From a virus, in the IMG/VR virus record IMGVR_UViG_3300044858_005801, positions 1-31,030 of that record: DNA of 31,030 bases; one strand, given 5' to 3'. Positions 2,164-25,325 of the stretch are shown one piece after another. The position numbers and the translations under genes are program-made. Numbering within the stretch: the first letter of the stretch is position 1; the number at the start of each line of letters is the position of its first letter. The notes beneath the pieces were generated by a model. That model ran no database searches and had not been told where the DNA came from. It was given only the letters and a program-made list of their open reading frames with translations.

Positions 2164-3558
2164 TCACCGCTGCACGCGGGGCCGCGGGCGCTTGGCCTGC
2201 GGCAAATTCTCCGCCACGTTGTCATCAGACCGGTCGGAAGCCTGCCGATCTGCCGTGGGGTGGGACAAACTGCCAACAGCAATTCCCACCAATGCGCCAG
2301 CAGGCGTTCGGTCCTGCTGGCTCGCGTCGCTCGCTGCGTTGATTTCGTTCACCCAATGACTGACCGCCCGCTGGGCGGCACACTTTTGGAGGAGCTGCAC
2401 CCACTCGGCCGGATCACGTCCCAACCCATGCGGGGCAATCCCGTAAAAATGGGTGTGGATGTCGTCGAGGTCCTGATCCAGTTCAGCCCGGGCGTGCAGA
2501 TAGTTCAGGATCCTCTGCGCCATCGAGCTGGGATAATTCGCGTGCTGGCCCGTCGCCGCAAACCGGTGCGCCCACCGCAACCACGGGAGACAGACCACCG
2601 GCCGACCATCGGCCCGGTATTTGTCGTGCAGGTAGCCCTCTTCGCCGCCGAATTCGCGGAACCACGGGCTGAAGCCGAGCCAGTCCCGCCGCCGGCAGCC
2701 AAACAGGCCGAGCCCTTGCAGCGGAATGTCAAACGGCGGGGTGTCATCGCCGCGGTACCGCGGGTCTAGGGCCCACTGCCCCAGCATGCCCGCCCCCCAC
2801 GTCCGCGTCTGGTGCGTGCTGACCGATCCGTTGTCGTATTCGAGCGGCCCCTGAAACAGGCCGCAGAAATCGGGATTGGCGTCGAGCCAGCCGAGCGTCC
2901 GCGAGAGGGCACCCGAAGCGACCAGCACGTGCGAATCGACGCAGATCACCACCTCGCCGCGAGCCCGCCGAAACACCTGATCCCGGGGGGCGGCCGTCCC
3001 CTGCTGTTCGCTCCAGGGAATGTACCGCCCGCCCGGAACCATCCGCATCAAATTCTGCACCCGCTGGCTCGCCGTCTCGCCCGGAGCGCTCAGTTCAGGA
3101 GCGGGCCCCTGATCGCCCAGCCGCGGGCGGTTGTCGATCACCAGAATTTCGAGCTGTCCCGCCAGTTCGGGGTGGTGCAGCATCAGCGACCGGACGGTGA
3201 AATACACCCCGTCGAAATCGTCGACCATGGCCATGCCCACCGTGAGCCGCGGGCGGACCTCGCCCCCCGCGGCCAGCGCCGGCCAGTGTCCGTCGGGGCA
3301 ACTCTCCGAAGCCATCGCCAATTTGTTCCGCAGGCTGTTTTCGCTGCTGCTGACCGGACAGCCGCAGCGGCGGCAGCCGGCACCGTCAAACTGCTGCGTG
3401 GGACACGCTTCGCAGATCTGCAGCCGCCGGGCGATCTCTGCGGCAGGGGTCACCCGCAACCCGTCGGCCGCGTGCTTCCACAGGGCCGCCGCGTACTGCT
3501 GCACGCGTCCCAACAGCGAGCGTCCGGGGGTTGGCGAATGGTCAAATGACTGGCTCAT
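2164..3558 (-). CDS. Family 2/27-like glycosyltransferase with N-terminal Cys cluster (464 aa)
   Basis: Probable GT-A fold glycosyltransferase that moves a sugar from a nucleotide-sugar to an acceptor. Residues 49-87 hold a cysteine cluster (C49-x2-C52, C62-x2-C65-x-C67, C87-P) resembling a small zinc-binding module common in phages. The transferase domain starts near residue 104 (LTVGMAMVDD). It carries a DSH metal-binding motif at 208-210, GGEE at 304-307 and a W-x-H at about 329-331, a set seen in polypeptide GalNAc-transferases and relatives. The C-terminal 60 residues are polar and unstructured. ATG 3558 is used; a GTG lies at 3567, and neither has a clear ribosome binding site. It directly follows two poly-Thr tail proteins, its likely substrates. 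Enzyme class is fairly sure, acceptor is inferred. Confidence 0.8.
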   Translation of the reverse strand: MSQSFDHSPTPGRSLLGRVQQYAAALWKHAADGLRVTPAAEIARRLQICEACPTQQFDGAGCRRCGCPVSSSENSLRNKLAMASESCPDGHWPALAAGGEVRPRLTVGMAMVDDFDGVYFTVRSLMLHHPELAGQLEILVIDNRPRLGDQGPAPELSAPGETASQRVQNLMRMVPGGRYIPWSEQQGTAAPRDQVFRRARGEVVICVDSHVLVASGALSRTLGWLDANPDFCGLFQGPLEYDNGSVSTHQTRTWGAGMLGQWALDPRYRGDDTPPFDIPLQGLGLFGCRRRDWLGFSPWFREFGGEEGYLHDKYRADGRPVVCLPWLRWAHRFAATGQHANYPSSMAQRILNYLHARAELDQDLDDIHTHFYGIAPHGLGRDPAEWVQLLQKCAAQRAVSHWVNEINAASDASQQDRTPAGALVGIAVGSLSHPTADRQASDRSDDNVAENLPQAKRPRPRVQR

Positions 3559-3614
3559 GCGAAACACTGTAATAGGGCGTTTAGTAATTGCAAGTCATTT
3601 CGGACATATTTTTG

Positions 3615-3634
3615 GAGCGTTTTTCAAAACGCTC
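3615..3634. repeat. AT-rich perfect inverted repeat between tail gene and glycosyltransferase
   Basis: GAGCGTTTT and AAAACGCTC form a 9-bp stem around a two-base loop. T5 and A5 flanks could extend it past one bulge. The whole 3559-3683 gap is unusually AT-rich for this genome. No U-tract follows the stem in the proper place on either strand, so it is not a standard terminator. It could be an operator or a processing site before the glycosyltransferase gene. No convincing promoter was found here. Confidence 0.5.
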
Positions 3635-3683
3635 AAAAACTGCGGGAAAAGTCCGGGATCTACAACACGGCGGGCGGCGTGGA

Positions 3684-4694
3684 CTACGGACCGGGGGGAC
3701 CGGTGGTGGTGGTGGTGGTCGTCGTCGTCGTGGTGGTCGGCGGATCGACGTCACAATTCGCGTTGGCGGTGACGGTCAGCGAGGCAGGCCAGCCGATACA
3801 GGTCGGATTCCAAGGGCTGGCGGGATTGCTGCCGGTGAAGGTGCCTCCAGTATCGGGGTCGAAATCGTACGAGAAGTATCTCTCGACGCCAAAATCCAGT
3901 TCCGCCGGACAAACGTAGCTGGAGGTCGCCGGGTCCCAGATTTTGTACAGCGGCCATCTCAGCCGGGCCTGCGTCTGCGTGCTGGGTCCGTACCACAGCG
4001 AGCCGGGGGGACAGCCGTTGTTGTAGGTGAGCGTGTATTCCCACTGGCAGGTGGCGCCGCCCCACCAGGCCCAACCTTTGCCGCGAAACGGCAGGCACCA
4101 GGTGCGGTTCATCTGGCTGCAAATCTGGTCGTTGCTGCCACACTGGCCCGCTCCCGGACGCAGGCTCACCCCGCTGACGGTGACCTGCATGCTCGGGTGA
4201 GTGCTGCAGTCGCAGGGGGGCTGCGTGGTGGTCGTGGTCGTGGTGCAGGCAGTTCCGGCGGTTGAGACACCCCACCAGTTGCCGTTTTGACGGGTGACCA
4301 GATCGAGCCGCAGCCCGGCACTGCCCGCCGCGTCTCCTACCGTGAACGGGATGGGACAGCCGACGTTGCGGAACGAAAAATCCCGGATCGCCGTCACCGG
4401 AATTTGATCGCGGTACCGCCAGTTCAAGAACTGATCAGGATTGACTTCAATTGTCTGCGACGGCTGCACGAAAACGAAACAGCCAGTGTAGGTCAAATAC
4501 GGCAACGGGACCGGATCGCCATAGGAGTACTGGGCGTTCTGCGTGTATCGCTGCGTCAGATTGAACGGGTCCCAATAGGGTGCGCGTTCGTCGGCGGCGA
4601 CCACAAACTGCAATTGTTGTTCCTGCGTGACCGGGGGCCGCAACTCGGCCCTCCCCCCCTGCTCGGCCTGCCGCAGATACTCATCCAGTTTCAT
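3684..4694 (-). CDS. Tail-tip protein with two poly-threonine tracts (336 aa)
   Basis: The start at ATG 4694 overlaps the previous stop (ATGA). The N-terminus (MKLDEYLRQAEQGG) is helical and similar in style to that of the preceding gene. The body is rich in Trp, Tyr, Cys and Gly, as in beta-rich extracellular domains. A run of seven Thr followed by Q-P-P-C-D-C sits near residues 150-156, separating two globular parts. The C-terminus ends in P-P, twelve Thr, then GPPGP. The second part contains about nine Cys, suggesting disulphides. Position after the hub and before the glycosyltransferase suggests a receptor-binding or tail-tip decoration protein. Poly-Thr linkers flanked by Pro are typical O-glycosylation targets elsewhere; modification here is inference. 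Confidence 0.75.
   Translation of the reverse strand: MKLDEYLRQAEQGGRAELRPPVTQEQQLQFVVAADERAPYWDPFNLTQRYTQNAQYSYGDPVPLPYLTYTGCFVFVQPSQTIEVNPDQFLNWRYRDQIPVTAIRDFSFRNVGCPIPFTVGDAAGSAGLRLDLVTRQNGNWWGVSTAGTACTTTTTTTQPPCDCSTHPSMQVTVSGVSLRPGAGQCGSNDQICSQMNRTWCLPFRGKGWAWWGGATCQWEYTLTYNNGCPPGSLWYGPSTQTQARLRWPLYKIWDPATSSYVCPAELDFGVERYFSYDFDPDTGGTFTGSNPASPWNPTCIGWPASLTVTANANCDVDPPTTTTTTTTTTTTGPPGP
3702..3737 (-). repeat. Twelve-codon poly-Thr tract (C-terminus of the 336-aa protein)
   Basis: Twelve consecutive Thr codons use a mix of ACC and ACG. The mixture breaks up pure trinucleotide slippage and suggests selection for threonine itself. Confidence 0.9.
4224..4244 (-). repeat. Seven-codon poly-Thr tract (interdomain, 336-aa protein)
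   Basis: Seven Thr codons alternate ACC and ACG, between a Trp/Cys-containing domain and a Q-P-P-C-D-C segment. It acts as an interdomain linker. Confidence 0.9.
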
Positions 4695-5245
4695 GGCTGG
4701 CCCCAGATGCGGGGAGCGGGCGAGGTCGTGCTTGTCGTGGTCGTCGTCGTCGTGGTGGTCGTCGTGACCTGGGCCTGCGGACAATTCGTGTACGCCTCGA
4801 GGGCCCAATAGCGGCCGTTGACGTAGGTCGCCAGCACGATGTCGTCGATCTGAAGCGTCAGGCCCACCGAAGTCAGCAGCGGATAGGTCTGCTGGTCGTC
4901 GCGCGGCAGGACCACCAGTTTCCGCCAGCCGAGCCCCCCCGCCGTTTCGTCAAACTGCACATCGACCATCACTCCGAACCACAGTCTGCCGTTGCACGGG
5001 GGGGCGGTGGTGCTGGTGGTCGTGGTGGTCGTGGTGGTCGTCGTCGTCGAGCCCGGGGCCGGGGTCGTCGTCGTCGTCGTGGTGGTCGTCGTCGTTGTGC
5101 CGCTTTCGTTGGCGACAATCCGGAAGAACACATACGGCGACCGCTGGACCACGGGGGGTCGCACCTGGGCGGCCTCGGCCTGGGCCCGGCGGCGGGCCTC
5201 TTCACTGGGGCCGCCGACTGCCTGCAGCGCGTCGCGGAACTTCAT
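4691..5245 (-). CDS. Tail-tip protein with three poly-threonine tracts (184 aa)
   Basis: ATG 5245 overlaps the stop of the hub gene (ATGA). The N-terminal 45 residues are helical and Ala/Arg-rich (MKFRDALQAVGG...), likely the docking segment. Twelve Thr, then PAPGS, then eleven Thr plus S-T-T follow at about residues 50-80. A compact domain of about 80 residues comes next (RLWFGVMVDVQFDE...DDIVLATYVNGRYWALEAY), which looks like a small beta-barrel. It ends with a third tract of eleven Thr plus S-T-T-S and a short Pro-containing tail. The next gene shares this layout, so the two are probably parallel tail-tip components on flexible Thr stalks. No known family is recognised. Confidence 0.75.
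   Translation of the reverse strand: MKFRDALQAVGGPSEEARRRAQAEAAQVRPPVVQRSPYVFFRIVANESGTTTTTTTTTTTTPAPGSTTTTTTTTTTTSTTAPPCNGRLWFGVMVDVQFDETAGGLGWRKLVVLPRDDQQTYPLLTSVGLTLQIDDIVLATYVNGRYWALEAYTNCPQAQVTTTTTTTTTTTSTTSPAPRIWGQP
4724..4765 (-). repeat. Poly-Thr tract (C-terminus of the 184-aa protein)
   Basis: Eleven Thr codons (ACG, ACC, one ACA) are followed by Ser-Thr-Thr. Codons are mixed, as in the other tracts. Confidence 0.9.
5006..5047 (-). repeat. Second poly-Thr tract (184-aa protein)
   Basis: Eleven Thr codons then Ser-Thr-Thr, leading into A-P-P-C and the globular domain. It is separated from the first tract by a PAPGS spacer. Confidence 0.9.
5063..5098 (-). repeat. First poly-Thr tract (184-aa protein)
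   Basis: Twelve Thr codons with mixed third bases (one ACA, the rest ACG or ACC), just after the helical N-terminal docking region. Confidence 0.9.
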
Positions 5246-7524
5246 GCGAAATCGACCTGGGCCAGCGAGGTTTCCAGCTCGGTGACCTGTTGCACAAGAT
5301 CATAGCGAATGCCGGTGACGGGGGTATTGATCCCCTCGAGGGTGTACCGCCCCCCCACACTGGTGATCAATTGCCCGAGGGTGACTGTCTCGACCACGCC
5401 GCGGATCCGGAAGAACAGCGTTTGCCGCTCGGTTTGGTACCAGCGGCAGGCCGCCTCGACGATCTGGCTCAGCCGCAGCCGGTCGTCGCGGACGAAACCG
5501 CCCGTCGAACGCTCGGCCCGGCCGTCACTGATCCGGACCACCGTGTCCGGCACGACGTAGTCCAGCCGGGCGTCAACCGGAATCACGAGCTGCCGCCAGG
5601 GGCGTCCTCCCGCCACCGTGTCGCGGATCTTCTTCCGCTGTTGGACCCGCCAAGGGAGCCGCAGGGTGAGCGTCGCCCGCATTTGCTCAAACTGGATCCC
5701 CGACTCTTTGCTCGGGTCGTTGTACGGCTCGAGCCCCACAATGGTGCCGACCGAATCGGCCGTCAGGAAATGCTGGGGGGCCCCGTGGACGTCGACCTCC
5801 ACCGCCGGACGGTCGGGCAGCACCCGCAGGGTGGCACTCCAGCGCCGCCGCTGCCGCTCGTTGCTCGACTGCTCGGCCAGCCGGTGCAGCACGTCGTACC
5901 GTGGCGCCGAGACTGTGCTGTTGTCGGTGATCGTGTAGAGCAGCGGCGGCAGGTACTGCGGGTCAAGGCCGTCCGGCAAATCGGCCTGCCAAGTCTGTTT
6001 GGCGATCCGGTCGCTGGTGTAATCCCCCTGATCCTGAAACGGCAGATAGGGCTCGAACACCAGCCGCGATGCGGCGTAGTGCGGGATTTCATTTTTTTCC
6101 GCAAACGGCTGAATCGGATCGGCCCGCGGCTTGCTGTCCCGGGCCGAATACCCGGTCGTTTCCGACTGGTACCACGGCGGATTGAACGAATACTTGGTCG
6201 CGACGGATTCGTCCTGCTCGTAATCCCAGACCAGCCCGTCCCAGTATTCATAGAGTGACCATCTCCGGAACACGGGCCGCAGATCGTCGCGTTGCCTGTA
6301 GCGGGTATTGGCCTCGTACTGCGTCGCCAACGCCAGACTGCTGTAGCCCGCACGGCCGCTGGCCCCGGAACGGTACGCCTGTTCCTGCGTATTGGTCCAG
6401 TCGGGGCGGAACAGAAACGAGCTGCCCCGCTGGAAGGCAGTCCGCCCAAACGCGAGCGTGCAGGTGGAGGTCGCAAACTTTCCCATCGCCACCACCTCGT
6501 CGTAACTGGTGGTCACCGACTCGACGATGCGGGCCTCGACGTCGAGGGCGTTTTCAAAATCCAGCGTGACCGGCTGCGCGTTGGCGGGCAGGACCCGGTC
6601 GTCGGGTAGGGTCAGATCTTCCGAAGCGAACGAAAACGGTACGACCGTCACCCGCCCCCGGAGGCCCGGCGTTTCGTCGTAGCGCACTGCGTAGCTGACG
6701 CCGCGACGGTACGGGATCAGTTCGTCCAGTACCGTTTTGACGGTCCGGCCGTCGGTCGCCACGAGCGGATCGTACCAGCTCAGCCGGGTGTCTCCCGGGT
6801 CGCCGTCGAGCACCCAGTCACAGACCGGATCGTCGTTGCCGTCGCGAGGGGGGTGAGTCGCCAGCAGGTACCGGACGGCGTCGTCGGCCGTCCAGATACT
6901 GTTGGACGTGATGGTGCGGCTGAACCAGTACGGGGCGGTCGGCGATCCGTCTTTCGTTTGCTCGGCCCGGTTCCCCTGCCGGTTCTTGTTGGCCTTGCCG
7001 AGTTCGTTGAACTGCTCGCCGTATTCGACCATCACCGCTTGGGTGGGCAGCGGCGTCGCTTGGCTGGCGTCGATCTGGCTCGACAGGATCAGACTGCGTT
7101 CCAGCAGCCGCAGCAGGCCAAACGCCGTAAACCGCTGCCGGCCGCGGGGCTCATCCGATTGTGGCCCGGAGCCCAGCGGAGTGGTGTCGTCGATCTCGAC
7201 CAGCCCGTACCAGGTGACGTCGTCGCCGTCGACGTTGGCCCCCTCAAGCAGCACCTTGAGGTACGATCCGACCAGGTCCAGCGGCTCAAACTGCTCGAAC
7301 TCGGTTTCGCCAGGGTGGCAAATCGACCCGTACAGGTACGTCAGGCGGCAATCGTCGATCCCCGGGGCGGCCCGGATTGCCAGGTCGTCCACGTACAGAT
7401 ACGGCACTTCCTCCCAGTCGCTGCCGAGCGTGTCGGCCCGGTAGACCTTCGAGCGGACGGCCGATTTGATCTGGCTCTGGCCGGTTGTGATTGTCTGCAG
7501 CACCGTCTGGCCGGTGGTGATCAT
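5242..7524 (-). CDS. Large tail hub / baseplate-like protein (760 aa)
   Basis: ATG 7524 overlaps the stop of the preceding gene (ATGA). The protein is long, beta-rich and has no signal or membrane segment. Early residues (VYRADTLGSDWEEVPYLYVDDL) and the paired WYGLVEIDD and FTAFGLLRLLERS segments resemble the beta-barrel domains of phage hub proteins such as gp27 or gpD. No catalytic motif is evident. It follows the tape measure and a small distal-tail candidate and precedes the poly-Thr tail-tip proteins, the place where siphophages encode the hub or tail-associated protein. A lysozyme or peptidase domain is not apparent. Role is inferred from size, order and fold style; sequence family not recognised with certainty. 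Confidence 0.7.
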   Translation of the reverse strand: MITTGQTVLQTITTGQSQIKSAVRSKVYRADTLGSDWEEVPYLYVDDLAIRAAPGIDDCRLTYLYGSICHPGETEFEQFEPLDLVGSYLKVLLEGANVDGDDVTWYGLVEIDDTTPLGSGPQSDEPRGRQRFTAFGLLRLLERSLILSSQIDASQATPLPTQAVMVEYGEQFNELGKANKNRQGNRAEQTKDGSPTAPYWFSRTITSNSIWTADDAVRYLLATHPPRDGNDDPVCDWVLDGDPGDTRLSWYDPLVATDGRTVKTVLDELIPYRRGVSYAVRYDETPGLRGRVTVVPFSFASEDLTLPDDRVLPANAQPVTLDFENALDVEARIVESVTTSYDEVVAMGKFATSTCTLAFGRTAFQRGSSFLFRPDWTNTQEQAYRSGASGRAGYSSLALATQYEANTRYRQRDDLRPVFRRWSLYEYWDGLVWDYEQDESVATKYSFNPPWYQSETTGYSARDSKPRADPIQPFAEKNEIPHYAASRLVFEPYLPFQDQGDYTSDRIAKQTWQADLPDGLDPQYLPPLLYTITDNSTVSAPRYDVLHRLAEQSSNERQRRRWSATLRVLPDRPAVEVDVHGAPQHFLTADSVGTIVGLEPYNDPSKESGIQFEQMRATLTLRLPWRVQQRKKIRDTVAGGRPWRQLVIPVDARLDYVVPDTVVRISDGRAERSTGGFVRDDRLRLSQIVEAACRWYQTERQTLFFRIRGVVETVTLGQLITSVGGRYTLEGINTPVTGIRYDLVQQVTELETSLAQVDFA

Positions 7525-7943
7525 GTCTGGTCAATCATGGGTTGAAGCGTCCAGAGGATTTCGACGACGGCGGTTGAGCCCGAGACCGCTCCCCCCGCCC
7601 GGGCCAGCACCCGCCGCGACGATTGGCAGACGCAGTCGAGCACGGCATAACGGCAACCGTAATTGGCCGCATAGTCCACGTCTTGCCAGACGACGTTCAC
7701 CACCGTGCCGATCAGGCTCTGGTACGACTGCACGGCGGTCGGAACGATTGGGAGCGAAAGCACGTCGACAAACGCCCGCATCTGAAACGGCTCGCTCCGT
7801 CGGCCCATCTTCATCACGCCCGTCCCGTCGACACCCGGGCGGTTGATCAGTTCGCACTGCTCGCGCGGCACGAGCGGTCCGCCGCGGGGATCGTCGGTGC
7901 GGTGCAGCGAAATGAATCCGTACGGGCCCACGTAGGAGTACAT
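7521..7943 (-). CDS. Distal-tail-like small tail protein (140 aa)
   Basis: ATG 7943 overlaps the tape-measure stop (TGATG); a GTG at 7946 is also possible. The protein contains NRPGVDGTGVMKMGRRSEPFQMRAFVDV near residues 35-62. This resembles distal tail proteins and tail collar subunits, which carry an R-P-G-V-D-G-x turn before a beta sandwich. It lies between tape measure and hub, the usual place of the distal tail protein in siphophages. It has two cysteines close together (LDCVC) near residue 105. Assignment rests on position and this motif; sequence identity with a named protein cannot be claimed. Confidence 0.6.
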   Translation of the reverse strand: MYSYVGPYGFISLHRTDDPRGGPLVPREQCELINRPGVDGTGVMKMGRRSEPFQMRAFVDVLSLPIVPTAVQSYQSLIGTVVNVVWQDVDYAANYGCRYAVLDCVCQSSRRVLARAGGAVSGSTAVVEILWTLQPMIDQT

Positions 7944-9511
7944 CACTCACCCCCCTCGGGTTTGCGGTCGGGTTTGGGGCGGGTGTTGCGGTTGAGCTCG
8001 CGCAGTTGGTCGAGCTGCTGCCGCTGGACCTCGGCCACTGCCGCCCCGCCGGCTCCCTCGGGAGACCCGGCCACCTGGGCGGCTGCGGCGCCGACACTCG
8101 GCAATTCGCCGAGCTGGTCGGTGGGGACCTCCCCCCGCAGTTCGGCCATCCGTTGCCGCAGCAGTTCCGGGGGCAGCGTGGCGCCGCTGCGCTGCCACCA
8201 AGGGAGCTGCATCTGGGCGGGGTCGGTGTAGATCTCTGCGATCGACTCGACCGAGGTGTCTCCCGTCAGGTTGCGGAAATTCGCCCGCTGCCGGCGGAAC
8301 GCGAGAAGGGCCTCGGGGATTCCCGCCTCACGCTGCAGCGACTCGGCGGCCTGAATCATTTCTTCAAAATTTTTGTTCTGCGCCATCATCTGCTGTTCCT
8401 GCAGCAGTTGCACCCGGACGCGGGCCGCCGCCGGACCTGCCGCCCGGATCCCGACGTCGGTCTGGAACCCAGCTTCGTCCCCCTGCAAGGCCAGGTACTC
8501 TTGCACCTTGGCCCGATCTCGCAAGAGACCCGACGCGGCGGCCATCGCCTCTTGTCCAAAGAGGTCTTTAAGAACCCCCGCCTGCTCTGGTTGGGGCAGG
8601 GCGTTCAGGGCGGTCGCCAGCCGCTCGAGCACCTCGGCCGGTTTTTCGCCGATCGCGTCGATCTGATCCGCAGCCAGCCCCAATTTTCCCAAGGCGTCCA
8701 TGGAACTGGTGGTTCCGCTGGCGGTCTGCAGCCGTTCCCAAAAGATTTTCAGCCCTGTGGCGGCCACGTCGGGGGTGGCCTTTTCGCGCATGACCGCGAA
8801 CTGGGCGAGGGCTTCCTGCCAGGGGACTGCCTGCGATACCCCTTGGACCTTCGGAGCCAGCGCCATGAGGTCGGGGGCCTGTAGCGGGGTTCCTTTGAAC
8901 GTCCGTTGGACTGCTCGACTCACGTCCTCGAGGTTGGCAGTGGTTTTTTCCTGTCCCGTGCCTGCCAGGAGGGCCGAGTAGGACTGGGCCAACAGCTTGA
9001 TATCCTCCGGCCGGGCGTTGGTCGCCTGCATCGTCTGCAGCAGCCGCTCGAGGGCCGAGCCGGTCCCCTGCTCGACGTTGAACCCCTGTGACACCAGTTC
9101 TTCCGCCCCTCGGGCGGCGGTGCCGTAGTCGACCCCCGTCCGCAGGGCGATCTGCGTCAGCCGCTCTTGGGCCTGCTGCCCCTGCACGGCGGTCAGGCCT
9201 CCTTGCACCCGCAGCCGGCGGTTCAGCTCGTCGTACTTCAGGATCCCTTCGTCGGCCTTCCGGTTGACTTCCTGCTGGGCCTGGGCGACGGTCTGCAGCA
9301 CATTGTTCAGTCCGGTGTAGGCCAGCACGGCCGTGCCGATTTTGGCCCCCCACTGTTCGAGGGCCTGCCCGGCGGCGTTGGCGTCTTCCTTTGATTTGCG
9401 CGAGACCTGCTTGAGCTGGTTCTCGAGCTTGAGGTATTTGGCTTCCAGCCGGGCGATCGCCGCCTCGGCCGCCTGCGAGTCGGCAAAAAACGTCGTGGTG
9501 ACCTGCCCCAC
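7943..9511 (-). CDS. Tail tape-measure protein (522 aa)
   Basis: GTG 9511 is preceded by AGAGGAG six bases upstream. The N-terminus (MGQVTTTFFADSQAAEAAIARLEAKYLKLENQLKQ) is a long coiled coil. A TMP-family core follows: helices with YDELNRRLRVQGGLT, GTAARGAEELVSQGF, SYSALLAGTG, LKIFWERLQTASGTTSSMDALGKLGL and LKDLFGQEAMAAASGLL. These are typical of the TP901-type tape-measure domain. The C-terminus is again coiled and Arg/Pro-rich. At 522 residues it is short for the family, so a short siphovirus tail of roughly 75-80 nm is expected at about 1.5 angstrom per residue. It scaffolds tail tube length and is ejected with DNA. No hydrophobic membrane patch is obvious. Confidence 0.85.
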   Translation of the reverse strand: MGQVTTTFFADSQAAEAAIARLEAKYLKLENQLKQVSRKSKEDANAAGQALEQWGAKIGTAVLAYTGLNNVLQTVAQAQQEVNRKADEGILKYDELNRRLRVQGGLTAVQGQQAQERLTQIALRTGVDYGTAARGAEELVSQGFNVEQGTGSALERLLQTMQATNARPEDIKLLAQSYSALLAGTGQEKTTANLEDVSRAVQRTFKGTPLQAPDLMALAPKVQGVSQAVPWQEALAQFAVMREKATPDVAATGLKIFWERLQTASGTTSSMDALGKLGLAADQIDAIGEKPAEVLERLATALNALPQPEQAGVLKDLFGQEAMAAASGLLRDRAKVQEYLALQGDEAGFQTDVGIRAAGPAAARVRVQLLQEQQMMAQNKNFEEMIQAAESLQREAGIPEALLAFRRQRANFRNLTGDTSVESIAEIYTDPAQMQLPWWQRSGATLPPELLRQRMAELRGEVPTDQLGELPSVGAAAAQVAGSPEGAGGAAVAEVQRQQLDQLRELNRNTRPKPDRKPEGGE

Positions 9512-14441: not shown

Positions 14442-17120
14442 CTACGCTCCGGTGTTTTTGTAGAGGCCGCGGTAGTCGATGGCCTTCGCGCCGAAACACT
14501 GGTACATGCGCATGGCGATCGCCAAGCGGTCGAACATGTTTTGACGTTCGAACGCCGGGGTTTCAAGGCCTTGCAGATACGCGTACTCGACAGTGTCGAC
14601 TTGGCTGGAGTCGCCCGCGAAGTACCACGCAGTGTCGCTGCCCCCCGCGGCCGTCGAGAGCTCGACGTCAACCACCGGCTGCAAACCGTTTTGCCAAATG
14701 TTCCCCACCCCCGAGTTGGAGCTCGCGGGATTGGCCGTGGCTCCCAACAGTTCTAGCCCGGTACCCCGCAGGGCCGGGGGAATCAGCAGATACCGGGGCT
14801 CGACGGCGACAAACACCCCCGAGTTCAAGCCCGTCTGCTGCTGCATTGCGGTGTACGCCACATTGAACGACGCCACACTCATGGCGGTTCCCGGGCCAGT
14901 GGTCAGGTTTTTGTGGGTCGCGGCATTGAACAGGGCGATGCCGTCGTTGACCAATGCGGCGTTGTCTTTGAGCACCCCGTAAACGATGCGGTTTTGCTTC
15001 CGCCGCATCGCCGCCCCCTGTTTGGCGGGGATGTCCGTCAGGGCCGCCAGCCGGTCGTCGACCAGCGTGTTCCAGGTGATAGTGAAGCGCTCGCCCCAAG
15101 TGACCACGCTGTACGGCTCGCGGCCATCGAGCAGCGTTGTTTCTTCAAACGTGCCGTTCTCGGGGATGACCTGCGGGTCGGAGAGTTCGCCGGCGATCAC
15201 GTTGTGCCGCGGCTTGAAATCAACAAAACTCTCACCCGGTTTGGCCCACGCGGTGAAGGTGGCGGTGGTCTCGGCATAGGACCGCCGCAGCACCACATTG
15301 GCCGCGTCGAACAGCAGGTTGGAAAACTGCGCGCGGCCGTTGTACGCCGCCCCCTCGGCCCGCAGGATTCCGAAGTCCAGCGGGTCGGCGCCCAGCACCA
15401 GTCGCGCGACCTCGGCGTTGGCCAACTGGTTGACCTGCCGGGCATCGAAGCCCGCGACAATCAGGCTCTGCCGGGCCATGTTCGGCAGGCTGCCCAGGAA
15501 ATGGTTGGGCCGCCGCGGAGCCTGCCAGGCCACGAAATCCTGCGCGACGTTGCTCCAGATCTGGGTCGGCACATTGGCCCTCCAGGTGCGCTGCAGCAGG
15601 GCGTCGCGAGCGGCCACGGCAAATTTGTCGGCCTCGGCTTCGGCCACGCCGATTCGCACGCCGGCGGCGGGCTGGCTGGCCTGCGTCTGCTGCTGGATCC
15701 GGCCGAGCACCCCCTGCGGGGTCAACGGTTCGGCGCTGCTGGTCAATTGGCCGATCAGGTCGAGCTGGGCCGCCGCCTCGAGGGCCGAGACCCGGACCAT
15801 GGCGATTGCGTCCTGGACCGACAGCGTTCCGGAGGTGGCCGACACAGGAGCCTGCGAGGGCAGGGCCGGAGGCGGGACGGCTGCGGCCACGGGGGTGGAC
15901 GACGTGCGGTTCAGACTGGTCGACACGCGGGCCAAGGCGGCGACCTGTTCCTGGACTGCGGCGCTCAGGTCACAGCCCGCCATCGTCAGCAGCATCTGCC
16001 GGGCGCTCTCGGCCTGGTCGGCGGTGGCGGCGGCGGTGATCGCACCGCACCGGATGAGGGCGGTCAACAGTTGCGGATCCATCGAGTAGTTCTCCAAAAC
16101 GGGGGGAAGTGTGGGGCGGGCGGGGTCCCCAGCGGTGGTCGGCGTGACCCCAGCCGGGGTGCCGGTTCCGCCCAACAGTTCCGCCAGCACCTGGTCCAGG
16201 GTGGCGACGCGATCGATCATGCCGGCCGCAAGTGCCTCGGCCGCGGACAACACCCGCCCCGAGCCAAACGCCGTCGCCACAGTCGACAGAGAGACACGGC
16301 GGCCTGCTGCCAGGTCCGCCACAAATTGTTCATGCACCGCCGCGATGCGCTCGGTGACCCGGGCCCGGGCCTCGGCACTGAGCGGTTCGACGGAATTGAG
16401 TTCGGCTTTGGCCGCCACGGAGCGGAACACGGTGGTGGTGATCCCCGCCTGCGCGTCGGCCTGCGACGTTTCCTGGTGGATCGCCAACACCCCCACCGAG
16501 CCAACATCGGCCGAGGGACTGGCGACCACTTCCGAGGCCTGCGCCCCGATCCAAAATGCGGCCGAAGCCATCAGGTGATTGGCGACGGCGATCACGCGCG
16601 TACCGTTTGCGACCGCCTCGCGGATCGTCGCGGCCAGCTCGGGGATTCCGGCGACGGCTCCCCCGGGGCTGTTGATGTCGATCACAATCGTCGAGACGTC
16701 GGGATTGCTGGCCGCTTGGCGGAACGCCTGGGCCACCCCCTCGGCCGAAACAAACCCGCCCCCCGAGGCGTTGGCCGAGTCGATGCGGCGGGGGACCAGC
16801 GTCCCCTGAATCGTCAGCACGGCGACCGACTGGCCCGCACTGGGGGGGCTCGACGGGGCCGAGTTCATTCCCGTACGGGGCGTTCGCCCGGGAACGGGGG
16901 CCGCGACCGGGTACAGGGCCAGCAACTGATCGGCGGCGACCGGTTCCTCACGCAGTCCCTCCAGCCGGCTCTCGATTTCGCCGTCGTCCAACGCCAGCCC
17001 CTGCCGCCGGAGCGACAGGATTTCACAAAACGCGGCGAGGCGTTCGGGCAGAATCGCCCACGGGGTGGCGAGGGCTTGGGCAGTGAGTCGCCGGACGGCG
17101 TGTTTGCGGGGCGCGGGCAT
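14442..17120 (-). CDS. Prohead protease - scaffold - major capsid fusion protein (892 aa)
   Basis: One frame carries an S49/ClpP-like protease, a linker/scaffold and the major capsid protein. The protease shows INSPGG at 149-154 and the Ser nucleophile region MASAAFW with S186, followed by SPSADVGSVGV, as in lambda gpC. Residues about 347-480 are Ala/Gln-rich and helical, as a scaffold. The C-terminal 400 residues look like a capsid: SFVDFKPRHNVIAGEL, PENGTFEE, WGERFTITWNTLVDD, NRIVYGVLKDN and FERQNMFDRLAIAMRMYQCFGAKAIDYRGLYKNTGA. Such fusions are an annotated class of phage genes. ATG 17120 abuts the portal stop. An internal start at 16082 would give protease-free capsid. Only proteolysis can show where the mature shell protein begins. 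Confidence 0.85.
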   Translation of the reverse strand: MPAPRKHAVRRLTAQALATPWAILPERLAAFCEILSLRRQGLALDDGEIESRLEGLREEPVAADQLLALYPVAAPVPGRTPRTGMNSAPSSPPSAGQSVAVLTIQGTLVPRRIDSANASGGGFVSAEGVAQAFRQAASNPDVSTIVIDINSPGGAVAGIPELAATIREAVANGTRVIAVANHLMASAAFWIGAQASEVVASPSADVGSVGVLAIHQETSQADAQAGITTTVFRSVAAKAELNSVEPLSAEARARVTERIAAVHEQFVADLAAGRRVSLSTVATAFGSGRVLSAAEALAAGMIDRVATLDQVLAELLGGTGTPAGVTPTTAGDPARPTLPPVLENYSMDPQLLTALIRCGAITAAATADQAESARQMLLTMAGCDLSAAVQEQVAALARVSTSLNRTSSTPVAAAVPPPALPSQAPVSATSGTLSVQDAIAMVRVSALEAAAQLDLIGQLTSSAEPLTPQGVLGRIQQQTQASQPAAGVRIGVAEAEADKFAVAARDALLQRTWRANVPTQIWSNVAQDFVAWQAPRRPNHFLGSLPNMARQSLIVAGFDARQVNQLANAEVARLVLGADPLDFGILRAEGAAYNGRAQFSNLLFDAANVVLRRSYAETTATFTAWAKPGESFVDFKPRHNVIAGELSDPQVIPENGTFEETTLLDGREPYSVVTWGERFTITWNTLVDDRLAALTDIPAKQGAAMRRKQNRIVYGVLKDNAALVNDGIALFNAATHKNLTTGPGTAMSVASFNVAYTAMQQQTGLNSGVFVAVEPRYLLIPPALRGTGLELLGATANPASSNSGVGNIWQNGLQPVVDVELSTAAGGSDTAWYFAGDSSQVDTVEYAYLQGLETPAFERQNMFDRLAIAMRMYQCFGAKAIDYRGLYKNTGA
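16080..16095 (-). promoter_or_regulatory. Internal ribosome binding site and in-frame ATG inside the protease/capsid gene
   Basis: On the minus strand TTTTGGAGA (GGAGA at 16091-16095) precedes an in-frame ATG (16082-16080) by eight bases, in codon 347. The following residues MDPQLLTALIRCGAI look like a natural N-terminus of a scaffold. The product would be 546 residues, scaffold plus capsid without protease. This parallels lambda Nu3, which starts inside gene C. The same TTTTGGAGA signal occurs before the 170-aa gene at 19966. Confidence 0.65.
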
Positions 17121-18788
17121 CTAGGTGTCTTCTCCCGGAGTGTCGAGCGGCTCGACCGGCGGCTGGTCGTCCTGCGGGTTGTCGTCGTCGTCCTGCGGGT
17201 TGTCGTCGTCGTCCTGCCCGGCGATTGCGGCGTTTTTGGCCGGGTCTCCCGCCATGCCGAACAGCGAATTTTCGAGTTCCCACTGCCGACCGAGTTCCTC
17301 CCAGTCGACGCCCCGTTTGGCGCAGATCTCTTCCCGGGTGATCGTGCCGTCCTGCAGCATGATGCGGTCGGCCTGGGCATCGTCGACCGGGTTGACGGTG
17401 TCCCAGCCCGGTTTGCGCCACCGCACCCGCAGGTACTGATCGGGGTCGTCCAGGAAGGCGTTCGGAGCGGGAAATCCCGGGCGACCGACCAGCACCGCCC
17501 CGCGCACCCACTCGTACCAGACGCGGTTGAGGAACGTATCGACCAGCAGTTCCTGTAACGCCTTGAACGTGCGGCGGTCGCGGTTCATCGCGGCCCGGGC
17601 GGAACTGAAATTCACCCGGCTGTAGTCGCGGCTGAGTTCGATCGCCGAGAGGTCCAGACCCTGGGCGATCGACTGTTCAATCAGACTGATCCACGGGACG
17701 GAATCTCCCTGCGGCACGTTCGGACCGACCGCCTGAATCTCATCCCCCGGCCGGCCGTAGTAGACCTGCCCGGGGGACATGCGTTCCAGCCGGTTGCCGT
17801 CGGAATCGACGACCGCCACGGAAGCGTCGTCCGACAACGTGCTGACCAGGTCGGGAGCGTCGTCGCTGCTCTTGACCATATACGCCCACTGCGCTTTCAT
17901 TTCGGCCGCGATCAGCTCGCTGTCGAGGTAGCCCCCCAGGCGTTGGGTCGACAGCACAATCGGGGCCAGCAGGCTGATGCCGCGGACTTGTCCGGTGAGT
18001 GTCACCAGCGACAGGTACCGGCAGCGGCTGCCGTCGATGCGGACCGGAACGGGATCCTCGCCGCCGACGTCGTTGACCTGCGAGGGCTTGACCCAGTAGG
18101 CCAGGTGTCGGCCGGTCCGGCGGTCGAGTTCGACCCCCCGCACGATCGGGTTGCCGGTGCGGGGGGCCACCCACGGCCCGTTGGTCCAACTGTCATTTTC
18201 TTCGGCGATGCGTTCCTCGGGAACCAGTTCGATGGCCAGCGGGTGGCGACGGCCGCCGCTGGCGCTGGTGGTCCGCTCGGAGTTGAACACGACCAGCACG
18301 CCCCCGGCCACGATCATTTCCCGCAGGATCTGGGCCTGCAGGCCGTAAAAGGTCTGCCGCTGGGACAGGTCGCAGTGAAAATCACTGCCCGGCACCACCC
18401 CCGCCCAATGCTCCCACTCGTCTTCCCACTCGCTGCGCAGGGCGGGATCTTCGATCTGCGGTTTCGGGGTGATTCCTGTAGCGATCACATTCCGCAGGAA
18501 GGCGTTGATCGCCGAAACCGCTTTGGGGTTGTTCCGCTCGAGGTCCCGCACCCGCTCGCGAATGGTGCGGCCGTTCAGTTGGTGCAGGCGGTTGGGGCCG
18601 ATCGTGCCGGGGTTCCAGTCCCCGGTCAGGCGGCCCATCCCGCCGGCGTCGTACCCCGATCCAAACCAGCCAGGCTCGGACCATGGCGACCCCGAATGCG
18701 CACGCAAAGCTGCGGCCCGGTCCGCTGCTTTGTGGCGGCGTTCGAGGTGTCGCAGGAAATGGCGGGTGGCGGCGTCGTCGGTGGCCAC
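17121..18788 (-). CDS. Portal protein, lambda gpB-like (555 aa)
   Basis: The dodecameric portal through which DNA is packaged and ejected. The frame opens at 19013, but its first 55 codons lie over the small secreted-protein gene, so GTG 18788 is the better start; no ribosome binding site marks it. The segment WNPGTIGPNRLHQLNGRTIRERVRDLERNNP, followed by AINAFLRNVIATGITPKPQI, is diagnostic for lambda-type portals. Later motifs fit too: LREMIVAGGVLVV, VQGISLLAP-like VRGISLLAPIV, and IEQSIAQGLDLSAIELSRDYSRVNFSSARAAMNRDRRTF. The C-terminal tail is acidic and repetitive (DDDDNPQ twice). It lies directly before the protease/capsid gene, as in lambda B-C. Confidence 0.88.
   Translation of the reverse strand: MATDDAATRHFLRHLERRHKAADRAAALRAHSGSPWSEPGWFGSGYDAGGMGRLTGDWNPGTIGPNRLHQLNGRTIRERVRDLERNNPKAVSAINAFLRNVIATGITPKPQIEDPALRSEWEDEWEHWAGVVPGSDFHCDLSQRQTFYGLQAQILREMIVAGGVLVVFNSERTTSASGGRRHPLAIELVPEERIAEENDSWTNGPWVAPRTGNPIVRGVELDRRTGRHLAYWVKPSQVNDVGGEDPVPVRIDGSRCRYLSLVTLTGQVRGISLLAPIVLSTQRLGGYLDSELIAAEMKAQWAYMVKSSDDAPDLVSTLSDDASVAVVDSDGNRLERMSPGQVYYGRPGDEIQAVGPNVPQGDSVPWISLIEQSIAQGLDLSAIELSRDYSRVNFSSARAAMNRDRRTFKALQELLVDTFLNRVWYEWVRGAVLVGRPGFPAPNAFLDDPDQYLRVRWRKPGWDTVNPVDDAQADRIMLQDGTITREEICAKRGVDWEELGRQWELENSLFGMAGDPAKNAAIAGQDDDDNPQDDDDNPQDDQPPVEPLDTPGEDT
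17167..17220 (-). repeat. Tandem 21-base repeat encoding an acidic DDDDNPQ tail of the portal
   Basis: The unit coding for D-D-D-D-N-P-Q occurs twice and is followed by a partial third copy (D-D-Q-P-P). It gives the portal a very acidic, flexible C-terminus, which may contact basic scaffold or tail-completion proteins. Confidence 0.8.
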
Positions 18789-21808: not shown

Positions 21809-22654
21809 ATGCTGACCGCCAACGACACGACGTTCGGAATCGAAATCGAGTGCCTGATCCCCGACACCGTCCGGATCGCTCTCGGTTACTACCACAACGG
21901 CCGCCAGATCGACGGCCTGCCCACCGGTTGGAACGCCCAGACCGACGGGTCGATCGTTCGCCGCTCCGGGTTCTACGCCGTCGAGATCGTCAGCCCGGTG
22001 CTGCGGGGTGCCGAGGGGCTGGCCCAGGTCGCCCAGGTGTGCCAGTGGCTCAACTCGATCGGGGCCGAAGTCAACGCCTCCTGCGGTCTGCACGTGCACG
22101 TCGGCTGGTCGGGTGACAAAGCTGCCACGATCCGCCTGACGACGATGGTCGCCAACCACGAAAAAGCGATCTTCGCCAGCACCGGGACCCACAGCCGCGA
22201 GCGCGGCACCTACTGCCGCGGTGTGCGGAACGACCGCACGATGCGGTCCGAATTCCTCGACAACGATACCGCCCGCCAGAGCAGCCGCTATCACGTGCTC
22301 AATCTGACAAACCTTGCCCGCCGCCAGCCGACTGTCGAGTTCCGGGCCTTCGCTGGCACCACCAACGCCCGCAAGATTGCCGGGTATGTCCGCCTGTGTG
22401 TGGGACTGGTCAACAAAGCTGCCAACGCCAAACGGACCATCAAGTGGGACAGTTCGACCGTCGTCGCCAGCAGCCCGGTCCGCAAGGGTGGCGAGGGGCA
22501 GACCGAGCTGAACCGGTTGTTTTTCGCGCTCGGTTGGAACAAGGGTCGGACCGCGACGGTCTGGGGTGCGATCGACACCCCCGAGGGGTGCCCGACCCTC
22601 GCCGACAGCAAGGCCAAGCTGATGGAACTGGCCAAGAAATACGACGGCGAGTAG
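21809..22654 (+). CDS. Amidoligase, glutamine-synthetase-like COOH-NH2 ligase (281 aa)
   Basis: Matches the Amidoligase_2 family of ATP-dependent carboxylate-amine ligases. FGIEIEC at 9-15 supplies the metal-binding acidic pair. Then come DGSI (46-49), EIVSP (59-63), SCGLHVHVG (91-99) and TVEFRAF (175-181) with its catalytic-type Arg, and a helix IAGYVRLCVGLVN. These occur in family order, and length is typical. Members are thought to join amino acids or peptides through isopeptide-like bonds, some tagging proteins or altering cell-wall peptides. First gene of cassette 3, with a class II amidotransferase behind it as possible ammonia or amine supplier. Family call is strong; substrate unknown. 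Confidence 0.88.
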   Translation: MLTANDTTFGIEIECLIPDTVRIALGYYHNGRQIDGLPTGWNAQTDGSIVRRSGFYAVEIVSPVLRGAEGLAQVAQVCQWLNSIGAEVNASCGLHVHVGWSGDKAATIRLTTMVANHEKAIFASTGTHSRERGTYCRGVRNDRTMRSEFLDNDTARQSSRYHVLNLTNLARRQPTVEFRAFAGTTNARKIAGYVRLCVGLVNKAANAKRTIKWDSSTVVASSPVRKGGEGQTELNRLFFALGWNKGRTATVWGAIDTPEGCPTLADSKAKLMELAKKYDGE

Positions 22655-22668
22655 TCGCCGCGAACCGG

Positions 22669-22693
22669 GGGGGGGCGGGTGGTCCGCCCCCCC
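22669..22693 (+). terminator. 10-bp GC hairpin between amidoligase and amidotransferase
   Basis: GGGGGGGCGG and CCGCCCCCCC surround a GTGGT loop. No U-tract follows. More likely an mRNA-stabilising or partial attenuation element, since the amidotransferase has no separate promoter. Confidence 0.5.
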
Positions 22694-22732
22694 TCCTGCG
22701 ACCATTGTTCCGCTTCCTGTCAGGAGTGCATC

Positions 22733-23380
22733 ATGTGCGGAGTGTTCGGATTCACCAGCAACAACGGCAATCCGGTCGACCTGGGTCGGCTGCGGGAGAT
22801 TGCCACTGTCACGAACAGCCGGGGTAACCACGCGTGGGGCATGGCGTGGATCAACAGCCGGGGTCGGTTGTGTCAGTTTCGGCAGTCGGGGCCGATTGTT
22901 GACGCCCTGCCGCTGCTGTCGATGGCCCGCGACGCCGTGGCGCTGATCGGTCACTGCCGCTACGCCACTCAAGGGAGCCCAGACGACGCCGTCAACAACC
23001 ACCCGCACCCGGCGGACGGGGGGTGGATCGTCCACAACGGCATGCTCCACGGCTACCGCCAACTCGTGCGGGATCACGGGTTGCTGCCCGTCTCACAGTG
23101 TGATTCAGAGGTCCTCGGTCTGCTGATTGAACGACTCGACGGAGACGACCTGATCGACCGGGTGGCCGAGGCCACCGCCGCGGCGCTGCGTCCCCAGCGG
23201 TCGGCATTAGTGTTGCTTGGGCTGTGGAAGCCGGGCCAGGTGATCGCGGTCCGGCGGGGGAACCCGCTTGTGACCAGCCAGACCCGGCGTGGCGTTTGGC
23301 TCGCGTCGCTGCCCGGGGGACTGCCCGCCACGGTGCGCGAGGTCCCCGACCAGCACGTGCTGGCGTTCCAGGCCCGCTAG
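22733..23380 (+). CDS. Class II glutamine amidotransferase (215 aa)
   Basis: ATG 22733 has CAGGAG upstream, and cleavage of Met leaves the catalytic Cys2 at the N-terminus (MCGVFGFT), as Ntn-type GATases need. Further family motifs: RGNHAWG (30-36), GHCRYAT (73-79), NNHPH (88-92), VHNGML (100-105) and CDSEVL (123-128). It is a free-standing glutaminase domain without a synthetase half. It would hydrolyse glutamine to supply ammonia, or act as an amide hydrolase in reverse of the amidoligase next to it. Published comparative work on amidoligases (Iyer and co-workers) describes such pairings in phages and bacteria. It shares its stop with the convergent zinc-ribbon gene. Confidence 0.88.
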   Translation: MCGVFGFTSNNGNPVDLGRLREIATVTNSRGNHAWGMAWINSRGRLCQFRQSGPIVDALPLLSMARDAVALIGHCRYATQGSPDDAVNNHPHPADGGWIVHNGMLHGYRQLVRDHGLLPVSQCDSEVLGLLIERLDGDDLIDRVAEATAAALRPQRSALVLLGLWKPGQVIAVRRGNPLVTSQTRRGVWLASLPGGLPATVREVPDQHVLAFQAR

Positions 23381-24660: not shown

Positions 24661-24891
24661 GTGACCCGCAAACGCTATCACCCACCGCTGAAACTGTACT
24701 CCACGGCTGAGGCCGCTACTGACCTGCAGGTCTCGCCCGAGACCGTCCGCCGACTGGCCCGGCTGCGCCACCTCGGCGTACGCAAGGGGCGCGACTGGCT
24801 GTTCACCCCGCACGACCTCGACCAGATGCGCGCCCGCCCCCGCGTGGGGACCTACGACCGCAGCCGCCCGAACAAAAAGGCCGCGCCATGA
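24661..24891 (+). CDS. Small HTH protein, excisionase/MerR-type (76 aa)
   Basis: GTG 24661 follows CAGGAGA and is chosen over a longer upstream frame that reads through two hairpins. The core LYSTAEAATDLQVSPETVRRLARLRHLGVRKGRDWLFTPHDLDQMRARP is a winged helix-turn-helix of the HTH_17/excisionase type: A-A-x-x-L-x-V-S-x-x-T-V-R-R-L then R-x-x-W-x-F-x-x-x-D-L. The C-terminus is basic. Such proteins act as excisionases or transcription factors. It is the only DNA-binding regulator seen in the island, hence a candidate to act on the four promoter modules. It overlaps the ASCH gene by ATGA. Confidence 0.75.
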   Translation: MTRKRYHPPLKLYSTAEAATDLQVSPETVRRLARLRHLGVRKGRDWLFTPHDLDQMRARPRVGTYDRSRPNKKAAP

Positions 24892-25325
24892 TCCTGCGAG
24901 CACTGACGATTAAACAGCCTTGGGCCTCGCTGCTCGTGGCGGGCGTCAAGACGGTGGAAAACCGCAGTTGGACCACCGCGTATCGAGGGCCGCTGGCGAT
25001 CCACGCCGGGGCGGCCCGCGAGCGCAACGCGGCCCAGATGATCGCCGATTGCTTGGGCCGCGATTTGACCCCCAGCGAGCGGGCGCGGTGGTTGCTCGAC
25101 GCCGAGTTGCCGCACGGCCAGGTACTGGGGGTGGTCGAGCTGCTCGACGTCGTGCCGGTCGAGCAGACCCACGAGGTGGAGAGCCCGTGGGCGATCGGCC
25201 CGTGGTGCTGGCGGGTGCGACCCTCCCAGCAGTTTCAGCCCCACGCCCGCCCCGCCTTAGCCGGAAAACTTGGGCTCTGGAAATGGGAATCGGGCGACCT
25301 GCGGATTGGCAAGTGGCGGGAGTGA
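24888..25325 (+). CDS. ASCH-domain protein (145 aa)
   Basis: The start overlaps the HTH stop (ATGA). The N-terminus LRALTIKQPWASLLVAGVKTVENRSW, then YRGPLAIHAG near residues 32-41, is the hallmark of ASCH proteins, a beta-barrel fold related to PUA. Later GQVLGVVELLDVV, then a W-x-x-G-P-W-C-W strand and a C-terminal GKLGLWKWE, also fit. ASCH proteins bind RNA or nucleosides, and some hydrolyse N4-acetylcytidine; the phage versions are common and mostly uncharacterised. It closes cassette 4 and the island, and is followed by a hairpin shared with the convergent nuclease gene. Confidence 0.85.
   Translation: MILRALTIKQPWASLLVAGVKTVENRSWTTAYRGPLAIHAGAARERNAAQMIADCLGRDLTPSERARWLLDAELPHGQVLGVVELLDVVPVEQTHEVESPWAIGPWCWRVRPSQQFQPHARPALAGKLGLWKWESGDLRIGKWRE

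Follow-up and report, generated by a model that had tools for sequence, protein, structure and literature searches.

In the window analysed here, an IMG/VR virus record taken in its entirety (31,030 bases), a glycosyltransferase gene follows two tail genes that encode long runs of threonine. This arrangement raises the question of whether the enzyme sugars the threonine tracts of its neighbours. The minus strand carries a large terminase of the gpA type, a lambda-family portal and a fused S49 protease-capsid gene, and on the same strand a tape measure gene is followed by two tail genes, the two Thr-tract genes and the transferase P0001 at the end of the tail module (Table 1). P0001 is indeed the next gene on the strand after the Thr genes, as a preliminary description of this DNA had stated, and the five tract lengths given there are exact. 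The same description had called the two genes tail-tip genes. They are adjacent and lie in the tail module; for the tip itself, it is from gene order that we infer such a role for both proteins.

Successive tail genes before P0001 overlap by 4 bp. The last Thr gene and P0001 are separated by an open gap of ~116-125 bp, a correction to the preliminary description, and a terminator scan around P0001 detected no terminator between the two genes. The start of P0001 was placed at the ATG at 3558 and not at the GTG at 3567, with the gene ending at 2164. Elsewhere in the window, an amidoligase (PF12224) at 21809-23380 on the plus strand adjoins a glutamine amidotransferase (PF13522), and an ASCH domain protein is encoded at 24888-25325. 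An 881-residue open frame at 14913-17558 (plus strand), antisense to the protease-capsid gene and without a family match, is probably an effect of high GC.

Table 1. Tail-module genes and threonine tracts of the window
Feature	Position	Strand	Remark
Tape-measure-like protein	7943..9511	-	PF10145 PhageMin_Tail match
Small tail protein, 141 aa, between tape measure and P0004	7521..7946	-	Position only
Tail protein P0004, 760 aa, upstream in same operon-like run	5242..7524	-	80% identical in L002
Thr-tract tail protein 1 (P0003), 184 aa; T12, T11 and T11 around one globular domain	4691..5245	-	
Thr tract 1 (T12)	5063..5098	-	Residues 50-61 of P0003
Thr tract 2 (T11)	5015..5047	-	Residues 67-77 of P0003
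Thr tract 3 (T11)	4733..4765	-	Residues 161-171 of P0003
Thr-tract tail protein 2 (P0002), 336 aa from ATG at 4694; internal C-T7-QPPC linker, C-terminal T12-GPPGP tail	3684..4694	-	
Thr tract 4 (T7)	4224..4244	-	Residues 151-157 of P0002
Thr tract 5 (T12)	3702..3737	-	Residues 320-331 of P0002
Glycosyltransferase P0001, 464 aa	2167..3558	-	Pfam Glycos_transf_2

As described before, the tracts are flanked by proline, serine and cysteine (GTTT..PAPG, STTAPPC, CTTTTTTTQPPC and DPPTTT..GPPGP). They are encoded by mixed Thr codons (ACC, ACG and ACA). Threonine makes up 6% of the residues in the long minus-strand ORFs. At this frequency a run of 11 has a probability of ~4e-14 per site, which excludes a chance origin of the tracts. 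P0003 had no match among GenBank phages with low-complexity masking on.

Fold and family of the transferase

P0001 consists of an N-terminal CxxC..CxxCGC ribbon (residues 37-92) and a DxH GT-A domain (residues ~98-400). The motifs from which a GT-A transferase had been proposed were located at residues 208-210 (DSH), 303-307 (FGGEE) and 329-331 (W-x-H) in P0001 numbering. D208, H210, W262, W329 and H331, all in columns outside the retrieval motif, are invariant in an alignment of 108 relatives. Note that the invariance of F303-H311 is partly built in by the search motif and was left out as evidence. The N-terminal cysteine ribbon resembles phrog_13558 and, weakly, DUF6171. A ribbon of this type also occurs free-standing at L021:1596-1886, ~200 bp after a poly-Thr gene.

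The alignment of 108 relatives yielded an AF2 model of the GT domain (303 residues) with a pLDDT of 94.5 and a pTM of 0.92; an earlier model from 4 sequences had been discarded (pLDDT 43.8). In a Foldseek search against the PDB, the best 50 matches were all GT27 polypeptide GalNAc-transferases (2ffu, E 1.9e-13, TMq 0.67). A second aligner, VIA, placed GT27 at ranks 1-29 (Z 19.8-23.4 over ~247-264 residues, rmsd 2.7-3.5) and the first structure outside GT27 at Z 18.8 over 182 residues, a ranking obtained with the model of this one phage enzyme. In the comparison with GT27 and GT2 that the preliminary description had proposed, the model came out nearest to GT27, and not to a lipid or DNA-sugar transferase.

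By sequence, P0001 matches GT2 (PF00535) above the curated cut-off (34.5 vs 23.3 bits), and PF00535 is matched by 108/108 family members at E<=1. In the PDB, the enzyme's best match by sequence (E 4e-9) is the teichoic-acid transferase TarP, and no GT27 is among its sequence matches there. An hhalign comparison to one human GALNT2 sequence, the stretch used being identical to PDB 2ffu, aligned the motifs colinearly, including DSH and the distal His, at an insignificant probability of 1.2%. As modelled, P0001 is thus nearest to GT27 by fold and to GT2 by sequence.

Pairing of transferase and threonine-tract genes in viruses

The first searches, with P0001 alone and with narrow peptide patterns, found no relatives; the degenerate motif FG[GA]EEGYxH recovered them at 120 viral loci. 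Every locus matches the enzyme profile, with scores of at least 235 bits apart from one partial gene. When a tract was defined as at least 8 Thr in 12 residues, the gene directly upstream of the transferase (rank -1) carried one at 31/102 loci, compared to 15/895 genes at other ranks (p 3e-22). The rate was 30% at rank -1, 2-7% at ranks -2 to -6 and 0-3% downstream. In the subset of homologs nearest to the window enzyme, the counts were 22/37 vs 5/172. After removal of near-duplicates from the full set, rank -1 tracts numbered 21/72 vs 15/632 elsewhere (p 2e-13). On the enzyme tree, the Thr-neighbour label required 10 changes (shuffled mean 21, minimum 15), being clustered yet found in separate branches. 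The pairing extends across many viral lineages. Among the DxD GT2 genes that these viruses carry besides the family, 0 of ~14 had an upstream Thr tract.

The proposed co-occurrence was borne out, with a strong link between the family and Thr-tract genes, yet one of the refuting outcomes named beforehand was seen in part: 71 of the 102 homologs lack an upstream tract, 36 of these 71 forming a nuclease-cassette group. In that group (36/102 loci), the transferase gene immediately follows one for a PD-(D/E)XK (RecB/Cas4-like) nuclease in a replication module, never with Thr tracts. With these loci set aside, a rank -1 tract was present in 31/66. Thus, poly-Thr is not the target of this family at every locus, and the nuclease group may have a different acceptor. 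One such cassette is found at L138:2670-4585.

These results are consistent with P0001 being a phage-encoded soluble polypeptide O-glycosyltransferase of GT27-like fold that sugars the Thr/Ser tracts of the tail, a reading to which we assign a probability of about three in four. The adjacency may be partly modular, since the enzyme and the Thr genes both lie in tail modules. Alternatively, the transferase might modify a host surface glycan or a teichoic-acid-like polymer, for receptor masking or superinfection exclusion, with the Thr adjacency reflecting only a shared host-interaction module. TarP, its best sequence match in the PDB, has such an acceptor, wall teichoic acid, and like P0001 is phage-encoded (a staphylococcal prophage GT2); moreover, tail-tip modules often carry host-range cargo. 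We consider this unlikely, because GT27 ranks above TarP-like folds (Z 23 vs 16.8), the adjacency is specific to rank -1, and other GT2 genes in the same genomes are without Thr neighbours.

The Thr-rich proteins encoded before the transferase (at L093, L104, L204, L216 and others) end in a conserved C...C[NK]-x-L-x-[FY]. This tail may serve the enzyme as a docking signal.

Retention of the tracts and poly-Thr genes at large

Three further viral contigs (L002, L005 and L006) share the three-gene order with the window, their transferases being 73, 62 and 60% identical to P0001, and all five tracts are present in each. In every pair of these four related viruses, 100% of the positions aligned to a tract Thr hold Thr or Ser, a figure that depends on low-complexity alignment, with the tracts anchored by conserved cysteines and prolines. 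In L005 and L006, the tracts differ solely by the swap of Thr for Ser. Outside the tracts, the identity of the second Thr protein falls to 33-37%, and about half of the aligned tract Thr codons differ between relatives. The earlier proposal of selection on Thr over slippage was upheld against this diverging background: codon turnover and Thr/Ser-only exchange led us to reject simple slippage, and the aligned sequences look as would be expected with selection on the hydroxyl side chain and not on the DNA.

Poly-Thr is frequent in viruses beyond this family. A DNA pattern of ten ACN codons matched at least 120 stretches in viral contigs, and 110/148 T10 DNA tracts in the viral contigs matched lie in an open Thr frame that is the longest of six. 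Among the proteins flanking poly-Thr genes, 3/81 match GT2, at least two of them belonging to this transferase family; other recurrent neighbours are endolysins and tail or other structural genes. Retrieval by Thr alone gave a P0001 homolog at 3 of the 120 stretches listed (L093, L096 and L104), overlapping the end of the Thr gene in two. The family was present in 1/50 poly-Thr viral records vs 0/32 random records, counts that are very sparse. Since most poly-Thr viral genes are without an adjoining transferase, poly-Thr does not need one. Separately, phrog_4417, of unknown function, matches 9/81 proteins flanking poly-Thr genes.

The abundance of poly-Thr in viral structural genes without a nearby GT would fit the tracts being unmodified flexible linkers, kept by slippage or for spacing, with the GT acting on another protein or site. 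However, between relatives aligned tract Thr gives way to nothing but Ser while synonymous codons turn over, and the enzyme-Thr pairing is found on several distinct branches of the enzyme tree; we regard this explanation as slightly less probable still than a host glycan acceptor. A role of the family in glycosylating DNA bases, with displaced members in the tail modules, is very improbable: one group does adjoin a nuclease in a replication module, but the window copy is the last gene of a tail operon, the window ORFs scanned yielded no recognised genes for base hypermodification, and the fold ranks GT27 first.

Proposed activity, known systems and cellular homologs

As a polypeptide O-glycosyltransferase, P0001 would act in the host cytoplasm and transfer sugar from a nucleotide-sugar donor, putatively by retaining chemistry; UDP-HexNAc would fit GT27. 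The candidate acceptors are the Thr/Ser hydroxyls in the tracts of P0003 and P0002, whose genes lie just upstream; the two proteins would be modified before or during assembly. The predicted product is a set of extended tail-tip linkers that resemble mucins and bear glycans, and the benefit might lie in stiff protease-resistant stalks, receptor contacts or shielding. Viruses with this enzyme beside Thr-rich proteins probably coat tail parts with sugar.

The animal GT27 enzymes attach the first sugar to mucins and usually have a C-terminal ricin-B lectin domain. GT27 (human GALNT2, Toxoplasma GalNAc-T3) resembles P0001 in the GT-A fold over ~254 residues, the DSH metal motif, the GGE motif and the distal histidine (H-x-F versus H-R-F). 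Its acceptors are Thr/Ser beside Pro, as are the candidate acceptors of P0001. In contrast to GT27, P0001 has a zinc-ribbon-like N-terminal module and no ricin-B lectin domain was found in it (Pfam reported Glycos_transf_2 only); identity in the structural alignment is ~15-18%. In Trypanosoma cruzi, Thr-rich mucin domains are O-glycosylated by a dedicated polypeptide transferase, pp-alpha-GlcNAcT (PMC3769586). This system shares with our proposal a Thr-rich acceptor and a dedicated polypeptide transferase and differs in its eukaryotic Golgi setting; its Pfam family (GT60) was absent among the 25 families listed, of 26 matched at E<=1 by the 108 family members.

In mycobacteriophages Che8 and Rita, phage-encoded transferases are held to glycosylate virion proteins (Freeman et al. 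2023, cited in PMC11256854). Such glycosylation is reported for major capsid proteins, unlike the tail tracts proposed for the window; the Maravista report puts its transferases near the genome 3' end and, in the part used here, mentions no poly-Thr acceptor. Phage virion glycosylation is thus already known, and P0001 appears, by its modelled fold, to be a GT27-like variant. No match was found among 50,697 GenBank phage records for P0001 (E 1e-5) or for three clade representatives (E 1e-8), and no poly-Thr phage glycosylation was found in the open-access literature.

Cases of phage virion glycosylation are few, and acceptor sites and enzymes have rarely been tied together. Here, an enzyme and its candidate acceptor, a simple synthesizable peptide, are encoded side by side, and many uncultured viruses show this pairing; a single small enzyme and a single peptide would therefore suffice to test the idea. 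If true, it would assign a role to the poly-Thr tracts seen so often in viral structural proteins, offer a bacterial-expression route to mucin-like polymers and point to a possible prokaryotic relative of GT27.

Homologs of P0001 also occur in 93 bacterial or archaeal contigs, many within larger proteins; two scanned bacterial homologs (L255 and L305) are fused to an HprK-related kinase. The neighbourhood of bacterial homologs includes secreted proteins of twin-arginine-like type that carry a W-x-[KRT]-P...LP[AS]HA segment and end in long Thr stretches. Thr-tract ORFs were present at 21 loci within 1.5 kb of the homolog, at 6 loci at 1.5-3 kb and at none beyond. The test at rank +-1 was weak (6/149 vs 11/635, p 0.11), while the distance bins show a gradient. 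The bacterial Thr association is weaker than that in phages but points the same way. It is conceivable, at somewhat less than even odds, that a widespread and undescribed mucin-type O-glycosylation exists in prokaryotes and the viruses that infect them, in which GT27-fold DxH transferases are paired with poly-Thr proteins, either of phage tails or of a twin-arginine-type secreted kind with an HprK-kinase-fused enzyme. Mucin-type chemistry would then not be an animal speciality. Twin-arginine-type poly-Thr proteins were seen near homologs at L253, L295, L318, L330, L342 and other bacterial loci, and at L267 and L301 a PqqD-like start precedes the Thr stretch.
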